Positions 12,101 to 33,402 of a stretch of DNA of 64,000 bases are shown here, in pieces; the stretch's first letter is position 1, and each line of letters opens with the position of its first letter. Below the pieces are notes generated by a model that was not told where the DNA came from, made no database searches, and saw only the letters and a program-made list of their open reading frames with translations. Made by a program: the position numbers and the translations under genes. This DNA comes from Sulfolobus sp. S-194 (GTDB taxonomy: Archaea > Thermoproteota > Thermoprotei_A > Sulfolobales > Sulfolobaceae). The DNA lies in assembly GCF_012222305.1 (NCBI RefSeq), contig NZ_CP035730.1, forward strand, positions 186,001 through 250,000. Reading direction: 5' to 3'.

Positions 12101-13144
12101 ACAATGGAAGACCTTGTCTGTAAGCTACACATTGTATTGCTGTTTTAGTTTCTTTTTGTTTTTACATATGGAAAGTATACAGTCTTTTGTGCTATGACAA
12201 GTTTTAGTTTCTTTTTGTTTTTACCATCAATTCTACTAAAGTGCTGGTGTCTACACTATAGTTTTAGTTTCTTTTTGTTTTTACTTTTTGCTAGCATGAT
12301 AGGGCAAGTGGATGCAGGTTCGTTTTAGTTTCTTTTTGTTTTTACAAGAAAGAAAACGGGAAATGGGTATTCAAACGCCTGGCGTTTTAGTTTCTTTTTG
12401 TTTTTACAATTAACATCTTTACCCTGCATCCACTGTAATAACGTTTTAGTTTCTTTTTGTTTTTACTTAACCACGTCAGATCGTCCTCATGAAATGACTC
12501 ATGTTTTAGTTTCTTTTTGTTTTTACAATACAACAGCTCAACTACGCCTCAATCAATCCTGTGTTTTAGTTTCTTTTTGTTTTTACTATATTAGGCAAAC
12601 GTAGTTCAGTCTCAACAATAAATAGTTTTAGTTTCTTTTTGTTTTTACTGTTGTTTTCTAAAGCCTCTTTTATTTTCCCGCAAGTTTTAGTTTCTTTTTG
12701 TTTTTACGTAAGCGTAAGGAACCCTCCATTAGCAAACTTATTATGTTTTAGTTTCTTTTTGTTTTTACAAGAAATAGATAAAAAATTATCAAAATATAAT
12801 AAAGAAAGTTTTAGTTTCTTTTTGTTTTTACAAAGTATTGTGAACAAAAAAATATTGCACCAAGTAAGTTTTAGTTTCTTTTTGTTTTTACTGTACAAAT
12901 GATGTATATCTTTTTTCATCAGTTTTTAGTTTTAGTTTCTTTTTGTTTTTACGGCTGTGGAGATGCCTATTCAACATCACAATATTTTATAGGCGGTGGT
13001 TTTAGTTTCTTTTTGTTTTTACAGAAGTAAAAACATGCACAGGGTGCTAAGCTGCTATAGTTTTAGTTTCTTTTTGTTTTTACTCCGCCGTGCTAACTCA
13101 ATATGGTGTGACAGGCCCTAGTTTTAGTTTCTTTTTGTTTTTAC
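9182..13144 (-). CRISPR. CRISPR array 1, about 66 repeats
   Basis: I counted 66 copies of a 24-bp repeat that on the given strand starts GTTTTAGTTTC and ends GTTTTTAC, separated by 65 spacers averaging 36.6 bp. The leader is the 210-bp block right of the last repeat, because the same block sits right of array 2. The array is therefore transcribed on the minus strand, and the newest spacers are near 13,120. In crRNA sense the repeat ends ACTAAAAC, which gives the predicted 8-nt handle. All copies seen keep the G at the left edge. The repeat resembles the class I recall from Sulfolobus acidocaldarius. It is presumably processed by the Cas6 encoded at 15483. Confidence 0.97.
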
Positions 13145-15482: not shown

Positions 15483-16364
15483 TCATTCTGTCTCTATTAT
15501 TGCGTAACCGAATCCTGTTCCTCTACTTGTTCCTATTCCCATTATCTGTGCATGTCTAAGTATTTTCTTAAAATCTTCTATAACTTCTTTTCTTAATTTT
15601 TGTCTTCTTATAAACTTAGCGTAGCCTATTATACCTGGAAGGAGTTTATTATCGTAATTATACCATACTACTTTTACGTTTCTTAATATGTCTGGCGTTT
15701 CTCTAAATGCGTAACCAAGCCTTATTATTGTTTTACCGTATCTGGCTCTTAGTAGTTCGTAAACGTTTACTGAAAATATTACGGGTGGTAATGGTAGGAA
15801 TCTCTTTAGTCTATCTCTTTCTACCCCCGCTATGTATGAGAATGGATCTCTGAATAATGTAGGTGAGATGAATTTTACTTTAAGTGTGGTGAAATTTGAC
15901 GGAGGATCAGTTACTTCAACCAATTGGTATTCTCTCATTCGAACTTTTACTTCAAATTCTCCGTATTTCATTTTTATCCCGGAGGAGAGGTTAATTAATG
16001 CTTTTGATAGTTGCGGTTTGAGAGCGTTGTTTATTCCTACCAAGAAGTAATATTCTCCTCCTATTTCTAATGGTATTTTCTTGTCGTTATTCGAATAACT
16101 CTTAAGGTAAATAGGTATTGTTGGTAATGGAATTGAGGTTAATCCATTATTTTTCTCTTTGTTGCTGTATTTAAGTAATGGTGTTATTCTTATAGGCTTC
16201 GGATTTAATTCCTTTAATTGTTTCTCAAATATTTCTTCTAATTCGGGGTTTGCTTGTATTAAGAGGGCTTTTACGAATTTTCCGGTATAGTCTGTTGTAA
16301 TGAAGCGTGAAACGTTAACTCTTATTAGATGGAGAGAATATAACAACTCTTCTTCCTCTTCCAA
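15483..16364 (-). CDS. cas6: Cas6 CRISPR RNA endoribonuclease
   Basis: The protein has 293 residues with the C-terminal glycine-rich loop of Cas6, GIGTSRGTGFGYA, in its last 20 residues, and the two RAMP-like ferredoxin folds expected from its length. Cas6 cuts the array transcript inside each repeat and leaves the 8-nt 5' handle. No other Cas6 is visible, so it probably serves both effector complexes. The frame opens at a TTG at 16364 (MEEEEELLYSLHLIRV). A TTG at 16346 would give MLYSLHLIRV, closer to the usual Cas6 N-terminus, and the purine-rich GGAAGAGGAAGAAGAG before it could act as its ribosome site. It stands between array 1 and the vapC gene on the same strand as the array. Confidence 0.85.
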   Translation of the reverse strand: MEEEEELLYSLHLIRVNVSRFITTDYTGKFVKALLIQANPELEEIFEKQLKELNPKPIRITPLLKYSNKEKNNGLTSIPLPTIPIYLKSYSNNDKKIPLEIGGEYYFLVGINNALKPQLSKALINLSSGIKMKYGEFEVKVRMREYQLVEVTDPPSNFTTLKVKFISPTLFRDPFSYIAGVERDRLKRFLPLPPVIFSVNVYELLRARYGKTIIRLGYAFRETPDILRNVKVVWYNYDNKLLPGIIGYAKFIRRQKLRKEVIEDFKKILRHAQIMGIGTSRGTGFGYAIIETE

Positions 16365-16434: not shown

Positions 16435-16833
16435 TTAGTCTAATTTATTTTCAATTAGCTTCTTAGCTTCTAATAATTCCTTATCAAGGCTTATCATTTC
16501 ACTACCCATGATAATACTTGCTGATAGATGAAGGAGATCTAGTGTTTTTAGCTTAACTCTGTTACAAATTCTCAGAGCCATGTCGAATATTTTATTTAAT
16601 TCTATATCTTTTACTTTACAATCGCACTTATTGAGTGCATAATCTACAAGGGCGTCTAGTTCTTCGTCTGAAAGCTTCATAGTCCTAAAAAATACTGAAT
16701 AAAGTTCAATAACTACAAGTTTACTTACTAGTCTTTCTCCGTCTTTAGGATAATTTGCGAATGCTTTTTCATGGTTAGGGTCTTTTTCATTAATTAGAGC
16801 TATTATAACGCTTATATCGATATAATACTTCAT
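16435..16833 (-). CDS. vapC: VapC-type PIN-domain toxin ribonuclease
   Basis: The protein has 132 residues and a PIN domain: Asp6 in YIDISVIIALI, a central Glu in VVIELYS, and the C-terminal acidic pair in LKTLDLLHLSASI and ISLDKEL. VapC toxins are metal-dependent RNases held in check by a VapB partner encoded just upstream. Here the upstream vapB is broken (16830-17062), and its old stop overlaps this ATG. The toxin frame is intact and the catalytic acids are present. It may be silent, tolerated, or neutralised by another VapB such as that at 45301. Confidence 0.85.
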   Translation of the reverse strand: MKYYIDISVIIALINEKDPNHEKAFANYPKDGERLVSKLVVIELYSVFFRTMKLSDEELDALVDYALNKCDCKVKDIELNKIFDMALRICNRVKLKTLDLLHLSASIIMGSEMISLDKELLEAKKLIENKLD

Positions 16834-17062
16834 TCTCTTTCCCTTAATAAGTCTTCAAAAGTCGGCAACTCGTCCTTCTCTTAACCACTTCTCAGTCAGT
16901 TCTTCAACTTTTTCTTTTTTTAAGTTCCTCTTTAGCTTTGTCAAGACCGTAAGAAAGAATGAGATTAAAAGCTTCATTCCTAGATTTAGCCATACCCATC
17001 TCCTACCATTTTTCGGCTATTTCGTAATACTCATCCTTTACTTTAAGTGTTATAATCTTCAT
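16830..17062 (-). pseudogene. Broken VapB antitoxin gene
   Basis: On the minus strand it starts ATG at 17062 and reads MKIITLKVKDEYYEIAEK, then meets a TAG. It continues with EMGMAKSRNEAFNLILSYGL, shifts frame in an A-rich run after EELK, and then reads VEELTEKWLREG before another frame change. The order matches the intact VapB at 45301 (AKLIEKMIELGIARSKNEAVNLLIEYGR). The old stop overlaps the vapC start as ATGA. At least one stop and two frameshifts make a working antitoxin unlikely. Confidence 0.75.
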
Positions 17063-17222: not shown

Positions 17223-18125
17223 ATGATACTGATAGTCAAGAAGGCTAAAGTATACAAAAAGGGTTCTAATATAGTTGTGGAGACCTCTAGAGGTATTACA
17301 GAGTACAGTACATTAGATCTGGATTTGTTAGTGATTATAGGTAATGAGGTGGAGATTGATTCAGGTACGTTACTTTTTCTTTCTTCAATAAATGCCCCAG
17401 TGCTTATTCACGGCAAAAAGTATGATGTTACTCTGGTACCGCCCTTTTTGAACTCAATTTCCTCAATTAGAAGAGCACAATATACAGTCTCTGATACGTT
17501 TATGCTGAACGTAGCTAAGTCCTTTATAACTGGGAAGATAAAAGGGATGGTGAACCTTACAAAATATTTTTCTTATATAAGGGGAATTGAAATAAATATG
17601 GATATCGATATGGAAAAGATAAATAAAGCAGCTGATGTTGATTCGCTCAGGGTGGCAGAGGCTGAGTTGAGTAAGAAAATATGGGAGAAATTGAGAAATT
17701 TTCTTCCTTCCGATTTCCCTGGGAGAAAGCCTAGGGGCGAGGATGTAACTAATAGGACTATTGATTATGCATATTCTTTAGCATATTCTATGATTACTCA
17801 TGCTATTATGTCAGCTGGTTTAGATCCATATTACGGTTTTATGCATAAGAATATGCCGGGAAGATATTCGTTAACTTACGATTTTTCTGAGATGTTTAAA
17901 CCGTTTTGTGTCCATGTTGTGATCTCCACAGTTAATAAATATTCATTGGGATTGGATAAGAGAGGTTATTTAGACTCTAAGTCCCTAACTATAATAACTA
18001 AGAACTTTTATGAGATGATGATGAAAAAGAAGATAAGGAGTGCTATTTATACTAAGGCTAATGAGTTGAGGAAGTCAATTGTTGAATTTAAGGCTTTTGC
18101 TCCTTATATATATAAACCTAAATAA
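17223..18125 (+). CDS. cas1: Cas1 CRISPR integrase
   Basis: The protein has 300 residues, normal for archaeal Cas1. The N-terminal beta domain is followed by the helical catalytic domain. The metal ligands fit Glu146 or Glu148 in [14 protein letters not shown], His208 in DPYYGFMHK, and Asp220/Glu223 in [35 protein letters not shown] is the usual core helix. With Cas2, Cas1 integrates new spacers at the leader end. It stands alone: cas2 and cas4 are 26 kb away beside array 2. It is separated by 414 bp from the I-D effector operon and probably has its own promoter. Confidence 0.95.
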
Positions 18126-18539
18126 TATATTTGTGTTAATGTTAGCTACTGGTTTACCACAATTTTTGTAACTCCACGTATTGTAAACTTTTCCGTTTTC
18201 GTTGCTCCTAATAAGCCATAAGATTTGAGTAAAAGATTCTCTTTAGACGTAATGAATTAATTAGACAAAGAAAAAACTATATTATCTTTAATTTTATTGC
18301 CCCGTCAAAAATCATCCTATATTATACCTTAAGATCTGAAAAATGCGTCTAACAGCTTAAATCTTAGCGTTAATCTTCTTTAAAATTTCAGATTTCTACT
18401 ATATATAGAGAAAGCACTAGCTCTTTATGTTTCTTTAACTCTTGAAAATTTCCAATAAATATTTGACATAGATTTGACGAAATAATCAAAAATTCAAGCA
18501 TTCATATAAAGTTATATACCTCCAGTTAATATTTTTAAT
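18126..18539. other. Gap between cas1 and cas10d
   Basis: No complete gene is seen. On the minus strand, about 18150-18260 gives an open stretch (LLLKSYGLLGATKTEKFTIR) flanked by stops, possibly a decayed gene end. The right edge carries the cas10d promoter. Confidence 0.35.
18504..18518 (+). promoter_or_regulatory. TATA region of the type I-D effector operon
   Basis: ATATAAAGTTATATA lies 22-36 bp before the first ATG at 18540. It is the only TATA-like block ahead of cas10d and should drive the four-gene operon. Confidence 0.55.
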
Positions 18540-21125
18540 ATGATGAGTAAAGAAGAACAACGAATTGAAGAGCTTCAAAAGCTTATCTTGAAATCTATGG
18601 AGATTTTACCTTTTACTGATGCTATTAAGCCTGCAAAAGTAGCATCTCCTCAAACTTACGTTTACCACTCTATTTCTGTTGGTACTTTATCTTATACTAT
18701 TTGTGAAAAAATAGCGGAAGTGGACTCAGAAGGTTTGAAAAATCTGGAGAATATCTACGGTTATGATTATAGGGAATTATGTTACTTTGGCGGTTTCTTT
18801 CACGATTGGATGAAATTATATAGTACTAAAGAGGAGAAGAGTTTTAAGTTTTTACCAGATGCTAGAGAAAAGGCTAGGGAATTGGCTAAAAAGACTGGGA
18901 TTCCAAACGCTGAGAAACTCGTAGACCATGTTTATACTTTTGCTGAAGGACCTCTATCAAATAACCTAGAACTCCCATTATGGCTCTCAGTAAAATTAGC
19001 TGATATGTTAATGATAAGTGAGATAAACAGTGTTAGTGACGTATATAAATTTGCAGAGAGTCCCAATTACATAGATGCAATAAGGGCATTAAGAAATTAT
19101 GGGTTGGATTTGCACTACATAAGTGCATCCCCTAGATTGTTCACAATTCTGGCGTCAGAGGATATTATGAAAAGTGTCAACGGTACTCCGCTAATTACAT
19201 ATAAGGACGGATTTGTATATATTTCTGGGACTGATTCTTCTCCTTTACCGCTCTCTAAAATAAGGGAAATTTTCGAGAGTAGGTTCAGATCGGTAGATAT
19301 TAAAAATATCGCTGATCAAATCGAGAGGTGTATCAGTAATAAAGAGGAGGAATGGAATAAGCTTAACTCCGGTGATTTCTCAGTACTATATAATGAAAAG
19401 TCTGGTGAGAAGAAACCTAAGCAGCTTAATGCTTTTCTACCTACTAAGGTTTGTACTCCGTTTGAGGATGTTGTAGGTAATTTATCACCTCAAGATAGGA
19501 TAGCTGTTGCAGAAATGATTATTGGGAAATTAAGGGATAAAATACCCTATGGTGTTATAACCTATTTTACTGAAAAGTTCTCGCGTTATGATGAGGATTA
19601 CATTAAGAGTAAGCTTGACATCAAGGATAAATTTCCTAAGTATCTAGAGGGTATTAAACTGGAAGACACACAGAAATTAATTGATCAAATTCTTAATGCT
19701 ATAAGGGAGAAGTATAGTAAAGTCGGGGCTAACTTGACTATCGCTAGCTTTGTTAAGAAGAGTTTTAATGGTTATATAAATGATGATATTGATTTAGAAA
19801 AAATTCCACCTAAAAATTACTGTGTTGTATGTGGTATACCAATTTATGATGAGGTAGTAAACTTTAAGCAGTTTAGCACTCTTTTAGGAGGAAAAACAGA
19901 AATTTGGATTCCTAGAGAGACTGGCCTAGATGAAATAGACAGAGTTAGAGATAATTGGGCGATATGCCCTATATGTAACTATGAGGCGTTGCAATTAAAG
20001 GGAGATTTTGCCCCACCATTTATTTTAGTCTCCTTTTATCCTGGTGTTCCTATTCTGTTGTTAGAGGCTTTAAGTACTATTACTTCAGCTTTGAATTCTC
20101 AATCTGGTGATGAGGAGAAGAAATCCTTACAAAGCCTAGTCATTTCTAAACATTCTACCTATTATAATGTTTTTATCCATAGTCTTTACAAGATACAAAC
20201 TTTCAGTAAAAGCGTAAAAGCCGATTATTTAGGAGGGAAAGTTATAATCCCGGCTACAGAGATCACTAGTAAGAAGTCTACAAGATTGGACAAAAATACT
20301 CTTAACGATATATTATATTATATTCCTTACGTTTCTTCAGTATATCTTTTCTCGCCCATAATAATATCTGCAAGTATATACGATTTCCCCATAACTACTA
20401 ATACATTTGAGATCTCTTCTGAAATAAACTACTTATGGACGAGAGTGGGTAAAACCACTGAAGAAGATAATCCCAATTATATTACATTACTTTTACTGTT
20501 AGCTTATAATGCGAAATATACTGCCTTAAGGAATACTTATAAGAATAGAGATGAGTTTGAAAATGTCCTAAATTCAATGATTAATGATATGGACATGTTC
20601 GCAAGTGTTAGTAGATCCTTATCAGTTATTGCTTTAGGAATAGCTGTAAATGAAGCTAGATCGGAAGATGAAAGTAAACTCATAAGAAATATTAAGTTTT
20701 TTATTCCATTTTTAGATTTCGCGTTTTCGGGTGTAGATAAAATGGGGGAGTCTTTTTCCAAATCTTTAAATGCAATAGCTAAAGTATTAGTAGATGCGGT
20801 TAAAGATCAGAAGGTAAGCAAACACCAAATTGTAGGGTTTTTAAGGGATGGTATAGACATGTTTTTTAAATCTTATATGCTAGATAAAGATGACAGAATA
20901 TCTATAGCAGCAAATACTGCACTTAACACTCTCTCAAACAACTTTAACATAACTGATGAAGATTCGAAAAATCTTTTCTATAATTTAAAAAATGTTTTTT
21001 CTAATTTGTATGAGATCGAATCTACTTCAGATAGAAGTCTGGCTATATCTATATCCACAGCTCTAGTCAATTGGTTATACCTCCTTTACCTATATAGGAA
21101 ATCTGGGGAGGAGGAAAATGAGTAA
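18540..21125 (+). CDS. cas10d: Cas10d (Csc3), large subunit of the type I-D complex with HD nuclease
   Basis: The protein has 861 residues. An HD nuclease motif is at His88-Asp89 (FFHDWMK), with His43 upstream. A Cys4 zinc site is formed by CVVCG near residue 428 and CPIC near 476. No GGDD cyclase motif is seen, which separates Cas10d from the type III Cas10. The long helical C-terminus corresponds to the part that in type I-D also supplies the small subunit Cas11d from an internal start. Cas10d carries the DNA-cleaving HD domain missing from the partner Cas3'. Two ATGs are adjacent (18540 and 18543), and either fits a leaderless start. The stop overlaps csc2 by 8 bp. Confidence 0.9.
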
Positions 21126-22170
21126 GGCAGAAGAACTTTTCAAAAATATATTTGGGGTAGAATTTAATCAAGTCAAACCTTTTTTTTCAGATCTAAGTAA
21201 ACCAGATGTAAAAAATGTAGTACCTCAAGGTAGAGTAATAAACGTATATATTGTAATAAGGGCTAACAACGAACTATTGATAAGACACGAAGGCGGAGAG
21301 GATATATCACTAGCTTCAATAGGCCAAGATAAGTATCCAATAATACTTTACGATAAGTTCCAGTCAGTATATAGGAGAAAGGAACTAGAATTTCTGAGGA
21401 ATGACTATAGTGCTCATAAGGCAGAAATAAACAAGATAAGGGGTAAAGAGGATGACTGGTTCTGTGCTCTAAGGCCTACTGTAGCTACTAAGAAAGAAGA
21501 AGAAAGAATGGGAGGACAATGCGGAGAATGTCCGGACTGTATCACGTTTGGGTTTGCTGTTAGAAAAGAAGGGAGATACAACGTTAAGAGTAGGATTGAA
21601 GGTGATTTATTTATAGCCACAACATCAGAAAGAAAGAGCGTTGTGATAAGGACTTTTAACGCTGTAGATGATATAACAAAAACGACTATAATAGGTGGTG
21701 AGAGTGATCAGGCTGGTAGGACTGGAGCTTTATTCAGGTTATCACTAGTAAGGGCAGGGACAGCATTTGTAGGAAAGATTGCAATGAAAGATATAGGTCC
21801 TAACGACTTCTTATTAAAGATAGCAACATTAACAACTATAAGTAAAATAGGTGGAAATATAACTGATTTCGGCAACATAAAAGTCTATATACCGGCAATA
21901 ATGTTTAGCACTCATGAGATCTCATCGAGCTATGACCTCTTCTTAAAAGTGAAAGAGAAAGAAGATGTAGATACGATTATTTCCGATATAAACGCTCAAT
22001 TAGATAAGATGAAGAAGGGTGTCTTAGTTACTTCAAATGATTTTTCAGAAAAGATTAAGAGCGTACTGTTTGATGCTAACGGTCGTATAGTCCATGATGT
22101 AATTCAAGGAGCCTGGGAAGAGGCTAAGATATTCAAAGACTCCATAGAAGCTGCATTAAAAGAAAAGTGA
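21118..22170 (+). CDS. csc2: Csc2 (Cas7 backbone subunit of type I-D)
   Basis: The protein has 350 residues and matches Csc2, the Cas7-type subunit that lines the crRNA in the type I-D complex. A cysteine cluster, [10 protein letters not shown], lies near residue 133, and a glycine-rich stretch [18 protein letters not shown] follows near 195. The ATG overlaps the end of cas10d by 8 bp, with GGGGAGGAGG directly before it as ribosome site. The next gene, csc1, starts 6 bp after the stop. The order cas10d-csc2-csc1-cas3' is that of type I-D loci. It is intact and not unusual. Confidence 0.9.
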
Positions 22171-22176
22171 TCTCTA

Positions 22177-22949
22177 ATGTTATTCAGAGCAACTTTTATC
22201 CTTGAAGGTATCTTAATTTTTTCAACAGAAGTTCGACCTATGATATCTGCAGGACAAGCTATGGGTTCCTATATATCCCCCTCACCTTACATTCATAATT
22301 ACCCTATAATATACGGAATCCTGGGGAAGTCTGCCGAAGCTTACTTCGTTATACCGTCACTTCATTATAATTATTATGAAGACAGGAAAGTTAAGGGGGG
22401 ATAACACTCAATTACACTTCCATCAATCAAGTTATTCAGAACGCTAAATTAGGAAAGGGTTTTTATGTATTCCCGTTAATTCCTAAAAAGATAATTACAG
22501 AGTCGTTTCTGCTCTCAGCGGAATCTTGGACTTATTACTTACCAACAAGAGCACCTACGAAGAACGTTTTCCCCAGAGTTACTAGTTACACCGCCTTCAT
22601 GCCTGGAACTGAATTTTATACTTACATAGTTACAGATGGAAAGTTTGAGATCCCAAAATGGATCAGAATTGGAAAGAAGAGGTGGGGAATAATGAGGATA
22701 GAACCACAAGAGGTTAAGGTGGATAAAGTTACTCAAGTCGGGAATTGTACTACATCAATTCCTGTGAACATTAAAGATGCTGAAGCATTCGACTATAAAG
22801 TATTGAGTTATTCTAAACTGTATGAGACACCAAACGTAGAAGAGGGCCTTATAGGTTGGGCTACTTTAGAATCATGTTATGAGATTAAAAGTAGGAGTGC
22901 TAGGATTACTCTTCCTATTCCTAAATCATTTATAACTCAAGAGGTTTAA
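22177..22949 (+). pseudogene. csc1: Csc1 (Cas5 subunit of type I-D), split by a frameshift at a G6 run
   Basis: The first frame (22177-22404) gives 75 residues, starting [20 protein letters not shown] and ending in GG-stop. The same protein continues in the -1 frame from 22401: [48 protein letters not shown], through to the stop at 22949. The joined product would have 257 residues, a normal Csc1 size. The break falls in GTTAAGGGGGGATAA; one more G, or a -1 slip on GGG, restores the frame. Csc1 is the Cas5-type subunit near the crRNA handle, so a true null would disable type I-D interference. A sequencing error, a reversible G-tract change and programmed slippage are all open. Confidence 0.85.
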
Positions 22950-22952
22950 TTA

Positions 22953-24884
22953 ATGGCTGATAAAGAGTTAATTATTCCAGAGACTTTTATTCCGTTAGGT
23001 AATTTAGCGATAAATGGGAAAAGACTTAGGAAGTTTCAAGAGGACCTATATTATGCATTAGAACAAGCAGATGAAGTATGTATAACGGCACCTACTGGGT
23101 CTGGGAAAACTTTTTCCCTCTTAATCCTTTTAGCTTATGCTCTGAAAACTAGGTTGCCAGTAGTAGGAATTTACCCTTCAAAAGCTCTAATTAACGACCA
23201 ATTTGAATCACTAAGTAATACACTTTTAGACTTAGGGTTCCAGCGTATCGATAATTATACATATAGGGGAAAATTCTCTTTAAAGAACCTGATAGAAAAA
23301 GATATTAAACTTTACTTAGTAAAATTGACCCACGATACAAAAAAGGATGTGATGGATATAATAGAAAATTTCTATGCCGGACCAAATAAATACATTATAA
23401 TATTAACTGTCCCAGAATATCCTTATATTTACTTAACAAATTTAGGTTTAATTGATGCATTCTCAACACTTGCTGAATTAGTAAGTAAGAGAACAACAAT
23501 AACCCATGATGATACTAAGAGATTGAATGTATCTGAAAGTCTGATAAAGAGAAACTTCAACTTATTTGCAAGAACTCTAAACGGTTATTATTTTATTGAC
23601 GAGTTTCACCTTTATACTGGATTTGCCAGAGCTTCACTTTTAACCCTAAAGAGAATGATTGAGGACTATAACGAGGATACAAAACTATATAAGTTCGTCT
23701 TTTCCTCAGCAACTCCTATAGGGATAGAGTGTAAAAAAGTGGTAAGTACTTCTCCCTCGGATGATGGAGCAAAGATTAGGAAAAGAACTAGGGTTGTATT
23801 TCATCTTGCTTCCGGAAATCCCCAGGAGGAAGCTGTTAATTATATCGTAAATAATTTTAAATCTTCTGAAAATAGGAAAACCGGTATTATATTAGATAGG
23901 ATATATTACATAGCACAATTATGTGATAAAATACAAGACGCTACAGTTGTTTGGGGTTTGAAAAATTACGGAAAATGTAGGATTTCACAAAACCCTAGAG
24001 AGGAAAAAATAATCATCGGAAACAGTGCTATATCGTTTGGTATAGATATTCCTAATTTAGATTTGGGTTTCATTCACGCACATGATGCGGAAACTGCTAT
24101 ACAAAGGATTGGAAGGTTTGGAAGACACGGTGAAGGAGAGGCTGAAGTACATCTATTTATTAAATCTACATATAAAGTTACAAGCAAAATAAAATGCGGT
24201 AATATGAAATACGATGAGTTCCTTAAGTTAATTCGTGAGATTTATGAAAAAAGGGAGGATGATGGACTAGACAAAATAAAGATCTCTAAAGAGAGAGCCG
24301 AAGTAGCGTTTTACACTTATAAATTATTCAAGATGATTGCGACAGGAGAAATTGAGACTCAAAATCTAACTCACCAAAACTTACCAACACTCATTAAACT
24401 TCGCCCAATAGCTGACGAATACTTTTACGTTTATGCCTTTAGACCAGGAGGTATAACAGGAAGATGGTGTAACGGAAACGGTCAAGATGACTTCTTCTCC
24501 ATGGCTAGGAACTTTGAATATGATCCCGATAATCAGTGCTTTAAAGATACACCATTAAAGCAGCTACCAGAAGTCCTTGTGCAACGAGAAGTAAAAGATG
24601 AACATAAATTTTTACCGGTAGAAAAATTTTCAAAATTATATTTTCCAAGGCTTGTGATCAACAATAGAAATAATCTAATAAAGTTAGATGATGTTAAAGA
24701 TCTAAAAAATTCCTATGTCTTGGTAATTAAACATGAGGATGTAAATTGGAAAGACTTTGACGAAATGGCAAGAATAGTTGCAAGTTATGAGTCTGCATTT
24801 CCTATGTGCAATAAAGAAAATAGAAGTTTTGATCCTCAAAAGTTAAGATGCATCACATATGACGGATTGCTAGTATTTATCTAA
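22953..24884 (+). CDS. cas3: Cas3' helicase of type I-D
   Basis: The protein has 643 residues and is a superfamily 2 helicase. Walker A APTGSGKT is at residues 47-54, a DExH box DEFH near 216-219 (YFIDEFHLYTG), SAT in FSSATPIG, and motif VI QRIGRFGRHG near 382-391. It has no HD nuclease domain, as expected in type I-D, where that domain sits on Cas10d. It unwinds target DNA after the complex has bound it. It starts 3 bp after csc1 and closes the operon. The convergent cmr operon ends 46 bp beyond its stop. Confidence 0.9.
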   Translation: MADKELIIPETFIPLGNLAINGKRLRKFQEDLYYALEQADEVCITAPTGSGKTFSLLILLAYALKTRLPVVGIYPSKALINDQFESLSNTLLDLGFQRIDNYTYRGKFSLKNLIEKDIKLYLVKLTHDTKKDVMDIIENFYAGPNKYIIILTVPEYPYIYLTNLGLIDAFSTLAELVSKRTTITHDDTKRLNVSESLIKRNFNLFARTLNGYYFIDEFHLYTGFARASLLTLKRMIEDYNEDTKLYKFVFSSATPIGIECKKVVSTSPSDDGAKIRKRTRVVFHLASGNPQEEAVNYIVNNFKSSENRKTGIILDRIYYIAQLCDKIQDATVVWGLKNYGKCRISQNPREEKIIIGNSAISFGIDIPNLDLGFIHAHDAETAIQRIGRFGRHGEGEAEVHLFIKSTYKVTSKIKCGNMKYDEFLKLIREIYEKREDDGLDKIKISKERAEVAFYTYKLFKMIATGEIETQNLTHQNLPTLIKLRPIADEYFYVYAFRPGGITGRWCNGNGQDDFFSMARNFEYDPDNQCFKDTPLKQLPEVLVQREVKDEHKFLPVEKFSKLYFPRLVINNRNNLIKLDDVKDLKNSYVLVIKHEDVNWKDFDEMARIVASYESAFPMCNKENRSFDPQKLRCITYDGLLVFI

Positions 24885-24930: not shown

Positions 24931-25785
24931 TTATTTGCTTATAGGTAGTACGGATCCCCATCCATTTTCTCTGAAAAGCCCTAAGTTTGATCTTTCTCTA
25001 TAACTTATTATTGAACCAGGCATTATTGCAGGATAAATAGGTCTTCTGACTCCATAGGCAATATTAAATCCGAGTCCTATCAGTCCTATCCTTATCGCTA
25101 GATTATCCGTCATAACGTCTTTTAACTTGCCTAAGCCATCTATTTCCATTTCATATAGATCTTCTATTGCCACTATCTTATTCACAGGCTTTAATATAAT
25201 GGGTGAAAGAACAAGTCCTAGTTCTCCCTTTTGCGGAATTTCAAGATCCTTTAAAACCTCAACCTTAACTATGCTACTCTCTCCTCCCATTGTATAATAA
25301 CCTTCCTTAACTTCATGGTCAGTCTCTACAACTATTCCTCCTTCCTTAATCTTTATCAACTGTTGTGTATATAATAAAGATTCTTTAACGGTTTTACTAT
25401 CACCTTCTATCCCAATTCCTATCTTATTTATCACATTTAAGACTTTTACTACGTCAAGTTCTTCTACAATTTTCCAGTTATTCAACTTTATTACTTTTCC
25501 TGGATAACTGTGGGCATAATAACCCCCTTTTGTGTAGAGTAGAGGCCCCCATAACTTAACTTTAACTGTATTTAAATCACTTTCCAGTGACAATTTATTA
25601 ACATTTATTTTGTTTCCTGCATTCTTAGTAATGGAATATAGGAACCCAACTATAGTTGAAGGTAATGGTAGTGGTTCTGAAATTCCTTTATTCATAGGCC
25701 CGCTTAGTATTGGTGAGAATTCTCCTCCCCATCTAAACGATACGGGTTTTAATGGTTTGATTAAGAGAAATGTGATCGTTCTCAC
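24931..25785 (-). CDS. cmr3: Cmr3 (Cas5 subunit of type III-B)
   Basis: The protein has 284 residues and typical Cmr3 features: the N-terminal FLLIKPLKPVSFRWGGEF, ISEPLPLPSTIVGFLYS, and a C-terminal glycine-rich part GLIGLGFNIAYGVRRPIYPA. Cmr3 binds the 5' handle of the crRNA and pairs with Cmr2 at the base of the complex. It is the last gene of the operon. Its ATG overlaps the end of cmr2 by 4 bp, which fits coupled translation of partners. Nothing is unusual. Confidence 0.9.
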   Translation of the reverse strand: MRTITFLLIKPLKPVSFRWGGEFSPILSGPMNKGISEPLPLPSTIVGFLYSITKNAGNKINVNKLSLESDLNTVKVKLWGPLLYTKGGYYAHSYPGKVIKLNNWKIVEELDVVKVLNVINKIGIGIEGDSKTVKESLLYTQQLIKIKEGGIVVETDHEVKEGYYTMGGESSIVKVEVLKDLEIPQKGELGLVLSPIILKPVNKIVAIEDLYEMEIDGLGKLKDVMTDNLAIRIGLIGLGFNIAYGVRRPIYPAIMPGSIISYRERSNLGLFRENGWGSVLPISK

Positions 25786-28325
25786 CCCATATAATTATCA
25801 TCTAAATACTCCACTGCCTTTATTATATTAAGGTTATATGGTGGGGTATAGTTTAAATCTTTCTTTAATTTATTTCTTGTAATATAGTAATCAACTACAC
25901 TCTTTAATAAATTACCACAATCGCTTTCAACACACTTCTTTATTATTTCATCTCCCAATACATCTTTAATGAATGAATTACTTAATTCCTTTTTCCTCTT
26001 TATCTTTTCATACAATCCCTCAATTTGATCTAATTCACTGTTTCGTATAATTGCAATATTTTTAAAATCTAATTCACCCCTACCTCTTAAGATTATAGTT
26101 ACGTCTTTCCCTTTAACTTCATCCTTAAGTTCCTCAAGCCTAGAAGCTATTTCCCATGAGTAAAAGAATGGGTCCTTATAGTGTGTAATATATACCCCAT
26201 AACTCCTACCATAAGCTATCGGTGCATCAAATATCATATCCCCGATTTTTACAAAACCTAATGCTCCTTCACTGGAAGAGATACTCAAATCGCTTATTCT
26301 ACTCGCACCCCAATAGTTTAACCTTGTTTCTTCTATTAGATTTAATACGGATAAGTTACTGATTGGAGAAAGGAAAGCCACATCATCGCCTCCTGAATAA
26401 ATTAAGAACCCGTCCTTAGAGACTTTCAATGCATCCAAAAGCGATACAACCATTAAGCCTCTGGACAAGGTTATTAAATAATCTGGGGTCATAGGTATTT
26501 GAACTTCATCTTTCTCTAAATTAACGTTAAATATAGTCCTTATTTCCTCTTCCATCTCCTTAATCCTTTTTTCGTCTACGGTTACATTGGATATTGTATT
26601 TATGTAGTCCTTAAAGTTTTCGCCCCTAACTATTCCCTTCCATAATTTTTTACCTATATAATCTCCATCACCTTTTACTATTGCGTAATATATTTCCTCT
26701 TTTTTAGGAAGTCCTAGATTTTTGCAGTCTATCTCAGAAGTCCCCTCAATGCAGTCCAGCATTAATCGCTTTTTAGTAGTGTAAATATAAAAGAAAAGTC
26801 TTGCTATAGGTGTGTCATGCGCTTTTAGAGGATCGGGTAATCTTAAGAGTTTAGGATATTCGTCTGTCTCCGATACTTCCTCTTTTTTCTCTAATACATT
26901 TCTCCAATTATATACATTAGCAATATCGATAGTTGAGGGTATGAGCTGCATATTATATTTTCTCTCCATGTACTTGTGTAGTTTTCTCTTTATATAACAA
27001 TATTGGCATAACCTTTCCCCTTCCTCTAGGTCTTCATCATTATCTATAACTGATGGTAATACTCCACATGAAGTACATATCCTATAAAGTTCCTTATTTT
27101 CGTATTTTTCCGTTGTGTATTTATTAACGAAGTCTGAAGCAGTAATACCATAAGTTACCTTTACCATAACATCAGCCTCGTTAATAAGCTTAATTAAATA
27201 CATGAATTTAGAGAAAGCAGAATTAAAGTTCTTACTTCTCAGAGCTTTATTTACATCAACTACTCTAATTCTTATAGGCGTGATAGGATTCTCTAAAGAC
27301 TTCAATATAGACTTATCTGAGAAATTATCGCTTACTGCACTTACTATCTTTTCCCACGCCTTTACATATAACTCCTTAATGTATTTTTTAACCTCATCTT
27401 CATTGTGATTAACCGCCTTAGGTAATGCCAAAAGCACTGTAGCCGGCATTATGGGCTGTGTAGGGTTGAACATCAAATCGTTGAATTCCCAATAAGTTTC
27501 TTTGCCGTTTATTTCCCTAGGTATATTCTTTAGTCTGGTTACAAAGAATGGGTTCAATCCCATGAAAGGAGAGAGTACAATATCTACACCGTAACTATGT
27601 ATTAAGGGATCAATAGTCTCATATGTCAGCCAAGAGAGTAGATAACTCCCTCCCCAAAAGTCCCAAGCTTTCCTAGCCTTAGATATTATCTGCTGAATTG
27701 CAGGTAAATCGATTTTAACTATGTAACCAGTCAAGTCCCTATTTAAGAACCAGTTGACCATTGATGATGTTGCATATAAATGATCAAAAACAGAGTAAGT
27801 CCCGATTCTTGTATCAGCTAAGGGATAGTTATTAGGACAAAAGTGATACCAAGACACTTCTATTAATGCATAAAGTGAATTATATTTATCTCTCCAATTT
27901 AAATTACTTAAATTATCTTTAATCCATCTAACATAATCTTGTATACATTTCTTTTTAATATTATCAACTAGCTTTATCCTATGTTTAGGATTAAACACAT
28001 TATATTTCCACGTCTGTTTATATGTCCCAGTATTCTGAAAAGATATCGCATACCTCTCTAAAGATGCCGAGAACCTATCAGCCTTATGCACAATTTCTAT
28101 ATACTTGTCTATTTCTTCATCAGTTATACCCAGAAGCTTTGCAAAAGTAAGTCCATCTTTTTCATGAACGTCTGAAGCCCTTTCGTAATAAGTTACGTTG
28201 AACTCTTTTAGGAAAGAATCATCTAACGCCCTACCACTACCTTCTATACTCCTAGTTATACCCCATGGTTTCCATGGAGGATCATGCAATAGGGCTAGGA
28301 TTTTAATCTTAAAGATTTCACTCAA
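25782..28325 (-). CDS. cmr2: Cmr2 (Cas10), type III-B large subunit with HD and GGDD cyclase
   Basis: The protein has 847 residues. His14-Asp15 in ALLHDPPWKPW is the Cmr-type HD site. CTSCG (about 413) with CQYC (about 436) form the zinc site. SGGDDVAFLSP near residue 645 is the palm GGDD motif that makes cyclic oligoadenylates. Both active sites look intact, so the complex should be able to signal to the Csx1 encoded at 53773 and perhaps to cut DNA. It begins directly after the cmr6 stop with GAGGTGATC ahead of the ATG, a good match to the Sulfolobales anti-Shine-Dalgarno. Confidence 0.95.
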   Translation of the reverse strand: MSEIFKIKILALLHDPPWKPWGITRSIEGSGRALDDSFLKEFNVTYYERASDVHEKDGLTFAKLLGITDEEIDKYIEIVHKADRFSASLERYAISFQNTGTYKQTWKYNVFNPKHRIKLVDNIKKKCIQDYVRWIKDNLSNLNWRDKYNSLYALIEVSWYHFCPNNYPLADTRIGTYSVFDHLYATSSMVNWFLNRDLTGYIVKIDLPAIQQIISKARKAWDFWGGSYLLSWLTYETIDPLIHSYGVDIVLSPFMGLNPFFVTRLKNIPREINGKETYWEFNDLMFNPTQPIMPATVLLALPKAVNHNEDEVKKYIKELYVKAWEKIVSAVSDNFSDKSILKSLENPITPIRIRVVDVNKALRSKNFNSAFSKFMYLIKLINEADVMVKVTYGITASDFVNKYTTEKYENKELYRICTSCGVLPSVIDNDEDLEEGERLCQYCYIKRKLHKYMERKYNMQLIPSTIDIANVYNWRNVLEKKEEVSETDEYPKLLRLPDPLKAHDTPIARLFFYIYTTKKRLMLDCIEGTSEIDCKNLGLPKKEEIYYAIVKGDGDYIGKKLWKGIVRGENFKDYINTISNVTVDEKRIKEMEEEIRTIFNVNLEKDEVQIPMTPDYLITLSRGLMVVSLLDALKVSKDGFLIYSGGDDVAFLSPISNLSVLNLIEETRLNYWGASRISDLSISSSEGALGFVKIGDMIFDAPIAYGRSYGVYITHYKDPFFYSWEIASRLEELKDEVKGKDVTIILRGRGELDFKNIAIIRNSELDQIEGLYEKIKRKKELSNSFIKDVLGDEIIKKCVESDCGNLLKSVVDYYITRNKLKKDLNYTPPYNLNIIKAVEYLDDNYMG

Positions 28326-29063
28326 TCAGATCACCTCAAACCCTTCCAGTTCAAAAAAGTTATATCCCTTAGTCGACCTTGCACCTAATCCAATTTTCAT
28401 GGAGTAAAGTAGTAAGAGTGATATAAGCTCTACTGCATCCTTTACATTTAGCTTTTCCTTTACACTATCAATCTTTGCCCTTTTATCTACTCCAATTATA
28501 AACCTGAACCTAACGTTTTCTCTAATGGCTAAATGGACTATAGGTACTGGGCTAACTTCATATTCAGTCTTAATTGGATTTCCTCCTCTATAATAATGGG
28601 GATTTATAATATCTCCAATTAACACCCTACCCTTTTCACCGATAGGATAAGCATCACCAACTATTATATAACCCTCATTATTCTTCCCTCCAAAAATCTC
28701 CTCACCGTCATCTTTTGTTAGTGCATAAAGGTTACTCCTAAGGATACCCTTAATTGTAGACCCAGGAATGTAAGGGATGTCTAGAATTTCGTCATAATTT
28801 AATCCCACCTCAAAGATTAGATGAAATAGCCCCTCAGAGAGACCACTTAAAGCCTTATAATTAACTCTACCAGTTACATCTATTACCCGATAATTTAAAC
28901 TGATTAAAGCCTTTTTAATCTCGTTGGTTAGATCACTTATTAACTTTAAGTTAAACTCTTGCTTTTCAGCTCTTTCTAATATCCTTCTCCTCACTGTTTC
29001 CTTATTTTCTCCCGTTAAAATCCCGTAAACAAACTCTTTGATACAACTTAACCCGAAGTTCAT
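28326..29063 (-). CDS. cmr6: Cmr6 (Cas7-like RAMP subunit)
   Basis: The protein has 245 residues. It has the RAMP landmarks YIPGSTIKGILRSNLYAL in the middle, which form the thumb region, and GLGARSTKGYNFFEL near the C-terminus. Cmr6 sits near the 3' end of the crRNA in the Cmr complex. The ATG is preceded by GGGTG, 10 bp after the cmr5 stop. The gene ends immediately before cmr2. The family assignment rests on motifs and operon position. Confidence 0.88.
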   Translation of the reverse strand: MNFGLSCIKEFVYGILTGENKETVRRRILERAEKQEFNLKLISDLTNEIKKALISLNYRVIDVTGRVNYKALSGLSEGLFHLIFEVGLNYDEILDIPYIPGSTIKGILRSNLYALTKDDGEEIFGGKNNEGYIIVGDAYPIGEKGRVLIGDIINPHYYRGGNPIKTEYEVSPVPIVHLAIRENVRFRFIIGVDKRAKIDSVKEKLNVKDAVELISLLLLYSMKIGLGARSTKGYNFFELEGFEVI

Positions 29064-29073
29064 AAAAACACCC

Positions 29074-29469
29074 TTAGTCGATCATTTTTGCTACCTTTTT
29101 CATCTCGATTAATATTGGTAATATTTTCCTAGTTATTATAAGCTCATTTTTCCTAACCTCCTTTATGCACTCTAGTGAGTTATTACACTTTATATTACCG
29201 AACTTATTCAGAACGTCCGTTAAAAACATTAGATAAACTGAATATCCCTTACCCTCATTTTCAACTTCATCACATTCCGCCGATTCTAAATTGTTTACCT
29301 TTCCCTCAGCCTTTGCATAATAGAAAGTCATTGCTGGAACCAGACCCTCTTGTGCAACTAAAGAAGGAAAATCTTCAGCTCTCCTTACAAAGGCATCTAT
29401 GTTTTTACATTGTAACTTCTTACTTTCCAGTTTTTTACCATATTCAATTACATAATCTATATAGTCCAT
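29074..29469 (-). CDS. cmr5: Cmr5 (Cas11 small subunit)
   Basis: The protein has 131 residues, small and all-helical, with the Cmr5 pattern DFPSLVAQEGLVPAMTFYYAKA. Cmr5 forms the minor filament beside the Cmr4 backbone and helps hold target RNA. The start has GAGGTGATT 5 bp ahead, an almost perfect ribosome site. Flanking gaps are 7 bp to cmr1 and 10 bp to cmr6. Confidence 0.9.
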   Translation of the reverse strand: MDYIDYVIEYGKKLESKKLQCKNIDAFVRRAEDFPSLVAQEGLVPAMTFYYAKAEGKVNNLESAECDEVENEGKGYSVYLMFLTDVLNKFGNIKCNNSLECIKEVRKNELIITRKILPILIEMKKVAKMID

Positions 29470-29476
29470 AGTTTAA

Positions 29477-30742
29477 TCACCTCAAAATTTCTTCCAACCA
29501 GTCCAGAGCTAAATCCACATGCTCCTTTATAACCTGACTAGGAGGAAGAGTTTTGCAATTAGGATTAACTCTATTAATATTAGTAACTTCAACTTGCCCG
29601 TGGTCTGAGTGGTATATCTTAGTATAATCCTCGACATAGAAAGGGAGCAATATTACTCCTAGGTCCTCTGTAGGAGACATAACAATATAAGATTGTCTCC
29701 TCAATTCCCCGTTTTTACTTATATAACCCTTACCATTTACTTCCCTCGGCAAACCCAAAACCCAAGTATGATAACCCCTACCAGATCCCATAAAAGCGTT
29801 ACAGACGGACTTCCACGTAGACTTAAGCGTCGAAATACCTATTGCTGCTAATACACCCTCTATATCCTCGGCTCTGTATTTATTTCTGCGAATATAAGCA
29901 TTAACCGGCTTAATAACCCTTATATCTTGGGGGGAGGGAAATCTAGGGAAAGAAGAATTTCCTTCCCTTTTACATTCTACTATAATCTCTTTAGTGATAT
30001 CCAGATCTTTTTTAATCCCTTCTATAGCATGGCTTATCTTTGTTAACTTAAACCTACCAAAACCTCTATTAGCAGCACTCCCTATACCTAAATATTTTAA
30101 GGTTATGAGCATAGCATTAACAAAAAGCTTCGATACTTCTTTGTCTCTACTGAAAACTCTTATCCTTATCTTAAACCCAGGTTTCATTGGTTGTGATTTA
30201 AAGATCTCTTGAATAATCTCTGATTGTCTTTGACTCCTTCTCCCCATAGCTTTTAAATAGAACCTCGGGATAGTGAGCAACTTATAAAGTCCACCAAACT
30301 CCCTATTTAGATGCGGGTTTGTTGCAGAGGAATAGCTTGGGAAAAGGAGTTTATATCCCTCTTCTCTCATATCCCTTAAAAGATCAAGATAACTCCTCGT
30401 CTTACTACTCCTCCCTCCACTTTTCCCTATCATATCATCTATGTTAGGTATTTTGTCAAAGTACATTTCGCCATGACTTAATATACTTACAGAAACTTTT
30501 ACTGTAGAGGCATTCTTCTCGCTAATACCCAACTTTTCTGGTACATTACCGCACAAAGTCCTTATAGTCCATTTAGTCTTCCCTATAATTTCTTTAGGTT
30601 CTGGGTAATGCGGTTGCGGGTAAAAAGTATATCCTAACTCATTCCCTCCCCACCATGGTGTGAAAGCGAGAAACTCTCCGTCAAATACTATATAATTATC
30701 TAGAAGTCTATTCACTTTGGCGTTTAATTCCTCTGCTAACAC
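29477..30742 (-). CDS. cmr1: Cmr1 (Cas7-like RAMP subunit)
   Basis: The protein has 421 residues. It carries FLAFTPWWGGNELG near the N-terminus and the glycine-rich GIGSAANRGFGRFKL near residue 230, followed by a large C-terminal domain, as in Cmr1. Cmr1 caps the complex near the crRNA 3' end. The start is GTG, chosen because GAGGTGAGG stands just before it and the cmr4 stop is 10 bp away. It is a complete gene with no visible damage. Confidence 0.88.
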   Translation of the reverse strand: MLAEELNAKVNRLLDNYIVFDGEFLAFTPWWGGNELGYTFYPQPHYPEPKEIIGKTKWTIRTLCGNVPEKLGISEKNASTVKVSVSILSHGEMYFDKIPNIDDMIGKSGGRSSKTRSYLDLLRDMREEGYKLLFPSYSSATNPHLNREFGGLYKLLTIPRFYLKAMGRRSQRQSEIIQEIFKSQPMKPGFKIRIRVFSRDKEVSKLFVNAMLITLKYLGIGSAANRGFGRFKLTKISHAIEGIKKDLDITKEIIVECKREGNSSFPRFPSPQDIRVIKPVNAYIRRNKYRAEDIEGVLAAIGISTLKSTWKSVCNAFMGSGRGYHTWVLGLPREVNGKGYISKNGELRRQSYIVMSPTEDLGVILLPFYVEDYTKIYHSDHGQVEVTNINRVNPNCKTLPPSQVIKEHVDLALDWLEEILR

Positions 30743-30752
30743 TTACCTCACC

Positions 30753-31634
30753 TCAGAAAAGTAATTTTACCCTTATAATACCTTTTCCTATACTCTCCTT
30801 TCCTCCAACATTCATATAAAACTCATCAGAAAGGAATTCCTTGATCTTTTCCTTAGCACAATCCTCGTTACACACATCACTCCCACAATACTTATTCCTC
30901 CTGGGCACATTAAAGAAAATAATTCCTGCAAATATGGTACCATGCGGGATATATTCCTCAGTCCATAGGGAGTGTTCAGCCACAGTACCGGTCTCATAGT
31001 TTATCTTATTCCTCGTATACTTAATTATACCTCTCTCCATTTCCAAAACGGCTTTGCCATCATCATCTTCAACAGCCACTCCCTCCTTTAGTTTTCCAGC
31101 GATTGAACCGAGGTTTGTTAGTACAGAAGCCATATTAGACTGTGAAATATTAACTAAGGGTACTTCTAAGTCGATACCCACAATAACCTTATTCTTTCTC
31201 TCCGCAGATTCGAGAGAAGTTAAGAAGCTAATCCCATCCTTATAGTCCACAGCATTAAACAAGTCCTTTATTGTATTTATCAAATATTTAGATGTAAGAT
31301 AAACATAACCCATATCTAAGCTAGGAATTGGCATCAGTAAAGGATAAAGATCGCTTAGACTAATAATCGATGTGACGTCAGCATTAGACTCTTCCTCCCC
31401 TCCTAAAAGACAACAACATACACTCGCCTTATTACAGTCTATCCTCCCATTTTTATTAAATGCATTAAATTTTTGTCCACAAAACTGCTTTAAAGCTCCT
31501 TTAAATGAGGAAGAAAATATTATTGGAAATCCTTCTGGATCCCTTTGGATAGGTAAATCAACAACTCCACTCGATCGGCCCATACCTACATGAAGGGACG
31601 TGATCGCGTACACTATTAGTGGAATTCCTTTCAT
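30753..31634 (-). CDS. cmr4: Cmr4 (Cas7 backbone, target-RNA nuclease subunit)
   Basis: The protein has 293 residues. LHVGMGRSSGVVDLPIQRDPEGFPI is the recognisable Cmr4 opening, and the Asp in VDLPIQRD matches the region of the catalytic Asp that cuts target RNA every 6 nt. IIFSSSFKGALKQF and the C-terminal VGGKESIGKGIIRVKL are RAMP signatures. It is the first gene of the operon. A TATA box at 31651-31666 lies just ahead and no ribosome site is needed. Several Cys-rich loops (KASVCCCLLGG and CGSDVCNEDC) are unusual and could bind metal. Confidence 0.9.
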   Translation of the reverse strand: MKGIPLIVYAITSLHVGMGRSSGVVDLPIQRDPEGFPIIFSSSFKGALKQFCGQKFNAFNKNGRIDCNKASVCCCLLGGEEESNADVTSIISLSDLYPLLMPIPSLDMGYVYLTSKYLINTIKDLFNAVDYKDGISFLTSLESAERKNKVIVGIDLEVPLVNISQSNMASVLTNLGSIAGKLKEGVAVEDDDGKAVLEMERGIIKYTRNKINYETGTVAEHSLWTEEYIPHGTIFAGIIFFNVPRRNKYCGSDVCNEDCAKEKIKEFLSDEFYMNVGGKESIGKGIIRVKLLF

Positions 31635-32336: not shown

Positions 32337-32398
32337 GGTTGGGAGAGCCGGTATTACTAGTAGGAGATACAACGTGATAACACCGAGCTCTCCCAACC
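32337..32398 (+). repeat. Hairpin around the transposase start
   Basis: GGTTGGGAGAGCCGGT (32337-32352) pairs with ACCGAGCTCTCCCAACC (32382-32398) with one bulged base. The GTG start at 32374 lies in the loop. A relic of the same IS at 48094-48139 has a hairpin at the same place with different bases. Confidence 0.7.
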
Positions 32399-33402
32399 AA
32401 GTCAAAAATAAATTATCTTCCATCTTGAACTTCAAAGGAAGAAAAGCAGAACAAGCAAAACAAGTAATAATCTCAGCAGCAATAACAAGAGACTCAATAG
32501 AAAACAAGGCAAAAAAGTTTAGCATATCACCACAAACAGCAAGAAACTACATAGAACAAACAACAATAGACAAGATGACAGAGAAAATAAAAAAACTCTC
32601 AATAAAGAAACTAAAAAAACGAATTAAAAACCACAGACCAATAAAAATTTCAATAGACTGGACATCAATAGAATACTACGGGAAACCAGTAGAAGGAATA
32701 GGAGGATCAAAACAAGGCTACGCATGGAACTACGCAACTGCAACAACACAAATCAACGGAAAAACCCTAGTACTAGCCCTAACACGCATAACCAAAGGAA
32801 TGAGTAAAGCAGATATTGTCAAGACCTTGATTGAGCAAGTCTTGGCCTTGGGCGTTAAAATATCGTTAGTAACGCTTGATGCAGGTTTTTACTCAGTTGA
32901 CGTGTTAAAGTACTTGTCTCAATTTAAGTTTGTGGTTGCTGTACCCGTGGGTGACGTTAAGGTTCACCACGATTTTGATGGTATATATAGGACGAGGAGT
33001 AAGGGGAAGGATAGGGTTGCTTTTAGGTTGATTGTTCATCATAGGGTAAGGGATGGCAAGAGGGAGTATTTTGCTAAGGGGACTAATCTTGATTTGCCCA
33101 AATACAAGGTTGTTAGGTTGTATAATGAGGTTAGGACTCCTATTGAGACTTCTTATAGGATGGTTAAATCTTTCTTGATTTTCACGTCTTCTAGGAGTTG
33201 GGTTTTTCGCTTGTTCGTCTTCGTTCTGGCTATACTTATTTACATGTTGTTCATGTTTGTTAAGGGGAAGATGTCTAGGGAAGACTTTCGTTTATTCTTA
33301 ATTCTGTTATTTTTATTTGATAATATTAATTATTTTTACGAATATTCATTTAATGCTCTAAAATCACTTTTTAATACATTAGACTTATTTTCAAGGGGGT
33401 GA
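32374..33402 (+). CDS. DDE transposase, ISH3/IS4-like
   Basis: The 342-residue protein is intact. The first acidic residue is in KISIDWTSIEYYG, the second in LVTLDAGFYSVDVLKYL, and the Glu in YNEVRTPIETSYRMVK, which resembles the Y-R-E-K box of IS4-type transposases. An N-terminal helix-turn-helix-like segment (FSISPQTARNYIEQ) probably binds the ends. The start is GTG, since no upstream ATG fits inside the element. The C-terminus is hydrophobic (FVLAILIYMLFMFV), as is common in this group. It opposes the direction of array 2 transcription. I did not assign an ISfinder name. Confidence 0.85.
   Translation: MITPSSPNQVKNKLSSILNFKGRKAEQAKQVIISAAITRDSIENKAKKFSISPQTARNYIEQTTIDKMTEKIKKLSIKKLKKRIKNHRPIKISIDWTSIEYYGKPVEGIGGSKQGYAWNYATATTQINGKTLVLALTRITKGMSKADIVKTLIEQVLALGVKISLVTLDAGFYSVDVLKYLSQFKFVVAVPVGDVKVHHDFDGIYRTRSKGKDRVAFRLIVHHRVRDGKREYFAKGTNLDLPKYKVVRLYNEVRTPIETSYRMVKSFLIFTSSRSWVFRLFVFVLAILIYMLFMFVKGKMSREDFRLFLILLFLFDNINYFYEYSFNALKSLFNTLDLFSRG

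Follow-up and report, generated by a model that had tools for sequence, protein, structure and literature searches.

The csc1 gene of the type I-D locus of Sulfolobus sp. S-194 is split into two overlapping frames at a run of six G residues, and we read it, with a probability of roughly two in three, as a recently frameshifted gene and an ordinary loss. The gene lies in a window of 64,000 nucleotides, the whole stretch of DNA analysed here, from a genome that forms one contig of 2.79 Mb and belongs to the genus Sulfurisphaera. The relevant features of the gene are the following.

22177-22404, plus strand: 5' part of csc1, in the zero frame; 75 residues followed by TAA (22402-22404); matches the N-terminal third of Csc1
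22395-22400, plus strand: G6 tract where the frames meet; reads G_GGG_GGA in the zero-frame phase
22395-22949, plus strand: 3' part of csc1, in the -1 frame; matches Csc1 residues 71-257

The split and its setting

The junction sequence, GTTAAGGGGGGATAA (22390-22404), holds the G6 tract. A TAA at 22392-22394 closes the -1 frame just upstream of the tract and, because it bounds that frame, the two frames can meet only in AAG GGG GGA. Coordinates, ORFs, and frame bounds thus confirm the sequence-only reading, which had placed the split exactly at this tract. The -1 part contains no ATG, GTG, or TTG start codon before 22599, and therefore the whole remainder of the gene cannot be translated independently from a common start codon. 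Adding one base to the tract yields a csc1 of 774 nt, 257 codons plus a stop, as had been proposed. This read-through product matches the PADLOC Cas5d model (CAS-I-D) with E=9.4e-71 (2-244/257) and the TIGR03159 Csc1 model with E=3.6e-10, where its 39.6 bits fall slightly short of the 41.4-bit cut-off, and the gene sits in its conserved position between csc2 and cas3'. Judged from these matches, csc1 would, when read through, encode a normal Csc1 of 257 residues. Both the gene and its tract are present once in the whole genome, and csc1 has no match in the plasmid collection searched. (A 20-base match in viral contigs sits in an unrelated, tape-measure-like gene and was set aside as chance.) In seven relatives csc1 is a single full-length ORF; the S-194 copy is not, and relative to these intact orthologues it carries the frame-breaking indel of a frameshift pseudogene.

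Around csc1, the I-D locus is arranged as follows.

15483-16364, minus strand: cas6; TIGR01877, E=2e-8, below cut-off; its orthologue adjoins I-D in relatives
17223-18125, plus strand: cas1 of the I-D locus; TIGR00287
18540-21125, plus strand: cas10d, intact, 861 residues, HD motif kept; PADLOC Cas10_Id, E=5.1e-254 (10-857/861)
21118-22170, plus strand: csc2 (cas7d), intact, 350 residues; TIGR03157, E=2.7e-57
22953-24884, plus strand: cas3' of type I-D, intact, 643 residues, with GSGKT, DEFH, and SAT motifs; TIGR03158 and PADLOC Cas3d, E=8.6e-209

The earlier statement that all other genes of the operon are intact is correct for cas10d, csc2, and cas3', but not for the surroundings of cas6 and cas1: no cas2 or cas4 is recognised next to cas1, and an antitoxin-like gene nearby is broken. 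The gap after cas1 (18126-18539) holds no recognisable gene. The antitoxin-like gene (16834-17062, minus strand) reads MKIITLKVKDEYYEIAEKW, a stop, and then EMGMAKSRNEAFNL; it has one in-frame TAG together with apparent frameshifts, one of them at an A7 run. It lies between cas6 and cas1, upstream of an intact PIN-domain toxin gene (16435-16833), whose product is an orphan VapC. A Pfam scan of one piece of the antitoxin-like gene gave no match, and the VapB-like label is our own reading of its sequence.

Relatives and the case for a recent loss

Among 31 Sulfolobaceae genomes, csc1 is present in eight, and only the S-194 copy is split. At the level of the class, csc1 matches occur in 27 of 229 genomes, many of the distant ones partial, with no other split inside csc1. 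Aligning csc1 of relatives over the tract, a check suggested by the sequence-only reading, places the G run in a loop of variable length, where no relative has a G run. The S-194 gene deviates at two of the 73 positions that are invariant in other csc1 genes (the seven intact Sulfolobaceae orthologues deviate at 1-8). Its branch, 0.226 compared with 0.268 in the sister, is no longer than the sister's. A single lesion, normal conservation, and a branch of this length together argue that the event is recent; as far as sequence comparison goes, the lesion would be young, or else the gene would be intact or still used.

The operon order cas10d-csc2-csc1-cas3' is common to S-194, six other genomes (G022, G001, G026, G017, G007, and G013), and Metallosphaera javensis; csc1 is intact in all of the others, whereas in S-194 it is frameshifted. 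Three of the nine I-D loci of the family carry lesions: csc1 in S-194, cas10d and cas6 in S. javensis KD-1 (G001), and the fragments left in G014, a member of another genus. In S. javensis, which belongs to the same genus as S-194, cas10d is frameshifted after about 100 codons and cas6 is frameshifted as well (locus L117, about 9359-9370 and 10674-10722), while csc1 and csc2 are intact; this locus is decaying independently. The remnant locus of G014 (L121, G014:C1:594000-610000) retains no more than the C-terminal end of cas10d and two pieces of csc2, which overlap and lie in different frames. Neither csc1 nor csc2 was found in G002 and G003, two of the four species of the genus. Given these absences, the lesions in S. 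javensis and G014, and the breakage of the antitoxin-like gene in S-194, I-D decay is a common outcome in this group. Among frameshift-inactivated cas genes, the S-194 case shows a single frame-breaking lesion in one effector gene beside intact neighbours, and the cas10d and cas6 lesions of S. javensis are comparable; it differs in that the lesion lies in a G homopolymer, so that one base can revert it.

A search of genome contigs found no close strain of S-194; it returned only Sulfolobales archaeon Acd1, Vulcanisaeta sp. JCM 14467, and Metallosphaera javensis. The I-D operon of the Vulcanisaeta strain (L114, BBDM01000004) is close to the Sulfolobales type, with a Csc1 57% identical to that of S-194, a likeness that suggests exchange between orders. 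This locus has several frame changes that may be draft sequence errors and was left out of the lesion count.

Gains and losses of one base in G runs are nothing unusual among Sulfolobales, as indicated by the G5 run of Sulfolobus acidocaldarius pyrE, a strong hotspot of expansion and contraction with, on our reading of the passage, 28 events among the 107 mutations of the reported wild-type spectrum (PMC3139894). In S-194, a one-base contraction of a short G run, in a loop of variable length, would have frameshifted csc1, leaving a 75-residue fragment and an untranslated remainder. This fragment lacks about 70% of Csc1, and the missing part contains the stretch alignable to the solved Cas5d structure of Synechocystis (profile positions 92-202 against 7sba_H 76-191); because so much is missing, loss of function is predicted. 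In the I-D Cascade, Cas5d sits at the base and recognises the crRNA by its 8-nt 5' handle (PMC9123187). Since it caps this handle, a I-D Cascade deprived of full-length Cas5d should fail to assemble, and I-D interference would be off. We infer that the tract truly has six bases, that a contraction produced it, and that the I-D system is no longer active.

Such a loss would be tolerated because an apparently complete, DNA-targeting I-A system and a III-B system stay in the cell. The I-A operon, about 50 kb away, has intact csa5, cas7, cas5a, cas3', cas3'', and csaX together with cas4/cas1/cas2/cas4, and has its own array with a different repeat. The III-B operon adjoins the split csc1. In the window, the alternative effector and the arrays are as follows.

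9182-13144: CRISPR array of 66 repeats, GTTTTAGTTTCTTTTTGTTTTTAC
24931-31634, minus strand: type III-B (Cmr) operon with Cmr3, Cmr2/Cas10, Cmr6, Cmr5, and RAMPs
33437-42073: CRISPR array of 144 repeats, the same repeat as in the 66-repeat array

No convincing self-targeting spacer that might have caused the loss of I-D was found in the approximately 13% of the genome searched. Recent loss, one of several outcomes raised by the sequence-only reading, is the best supported of them, resting on a single lesion, a conserved gene, a tract of a hotspot type, decay next door, and I-D decay in relatives. The csc1 frameshift would add one more route by which I-D interference is lost in Sulfolobales with arrays and other effectors kept, and for annotation it means that the S-194 I-D locus is not to be counted as active without a check.

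Error, switching, and recoding

For a dead gene, both parts of csc1 have kept their sequence unusually well, a state that equally fits a sequence error or rescue by slippage. If the genome truly has a seventh G, csc1 is intact and the split is a sequencing or assembly error. A lone homopolymer indel in a conserved gene is the classic signature of such an error, csc1 is normally conserved, and this singleton fits the expectation of the GeneTack authors that homology-confirmed singleton frameshifts are sequencing errors, not real indels (PMC3711429). Counts of G6 and G7 tracts, however, are 109 and 5 in S-194, against 85/1, 104/5, and 112/6 in three congeners, which shows no distortion of G-run length, and among 100 tracts of at least six G residues that were checked, 72 of them within ORFs that span 120 codons or more, the csc1 tract is the only one that breaks a gene. 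(Pattern counts, together with some 90 short stretches, supplied these statistics.) Because tract lengths are normal genome-wide and only this tract breaks a gene, systematic base-calling error at G runs is unlikely. In addition, the in-frame stop in the nearby antitoxin-like gene is a change that homopolymer error cannot make. The suggestion of a read error is thus not sustained in its systematic form and stands for a single miscalled base; overall, we consider an error at csc1 unlikely, at somewhat less than one chance in five. A frameshift-like signature also marks four further G6 junctions, each of which, on our reading of the translations, is a true boundary between genes (PCNA/metE-like, ABC ATPase/permease, PCNA/primase, and ATPase subunits).

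Slippage at the G run might instead flip I-D immunity on and off within a population. A single base restores the csc1 frame, the pyrE G5 run of S. acidocaldarius often expands and contracts, and frameshifts make up 0.55-0.69 of the spontaneous pyrE mutations reported for three strains (PMC3139894), so the idea is mechanistically possible, as it would be for any G run. Signs of selection for such a switch are lacking. The csc1 tract is private to S-194 and only six bases long; it is neither recurrent nor unusually long in csc1, whose copies in relatives show no enrichment of G tracts. Nor does it form a special class, given the 109 G6 tracts of the genome and the frequency with which those examined fall in long ORFs. 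We regard an on/off tract as quite improbable, and a slow G6/G7 switch that leaves the population mixed for I-D defence, with I-A and III-B permanently active, as slightly more so. If the tract did vary in culture, the locus would gain in importance, because a slippage-based switch of adaptive immunity would then be easily testable.

Finally, some full-length Csc1 could arise at G_GGG_GGA if the ribosome shifted to the -1 frame or the polymerase slipped during transcription. The heptamer has the X_XXY_YYZ phase, with a stop directly after the site, and one -1 programmed frameshift, that of fucA1 of Saccharolobus solfataricus, has been documented in Sulfolobales; it is the one documented case of cellular -1 frameshifting in archaea (PMC8211752). 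As in csc1, the fucA1 ORFs overlap, with the N-terminal part in the zero frame, the rest in the -1 frame, and a homopolymer at the junction. The two differ in that the slippery site of fucA1 is A-rich and is accompanied by a rare codon and a putative stem-loop that is conserved across Sulfolobales (PMC8211752), whereas csc1 has a G run with neither structure nor conservation: no relative has a G run or a split there. Y is G at the csc1 site but usually A or U (PMC8211752), and the same phase recurs in 13 of the 33 sense-strand G6 tracts of intact S-194 genes, four of them identical G_GGG_GGA heptamers. The RNA 3' of the tract offers no stimulatory structure, with z = +0.40 (+0.16 to +1.0 over all offsets) and 88% of operon windows at least as stable; if anything, it is slightly less structured than shuffled controls. 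The earlier proposal of programmed frameshifting is thus disfavoured by the unconserved tract, the lack of downstream structure, and the recurrence of the phase in intact genes. Recoding is very unlikely, and it and reversible switching of csc1 are both unsupported.

Other CRISPR-associated and defence genes in the window

Between 31841 and 33437, just before the 144-repeat array, there are seven CRISPR repeats in which the first base is altered in the inspected copies (TTTTTAG/CTTTTAG), and an ORF for a transposase-like protein of 342 residues (32374-33402) lies between these repeats and the array. The region is apparently an insertion sequence within a CRISPR array. Two further genes, flanking the arrays on either side, are possible defence genes: one (48349-50601) encodes a protein of 751 residues whose C-terminal domain is a Ser/Thr kinase (PADLOC mad6, E=1.7e-49), and the other (3858-8264) a STAND/AAA-like protein of 1469 residues with a weak match to mad8. 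A Csx1-type CARF protein of 461 residues, encoded at 53776-55158, some 22 kb away from the cmr genes, is probably a cOA-responsive effector of the III-B system.
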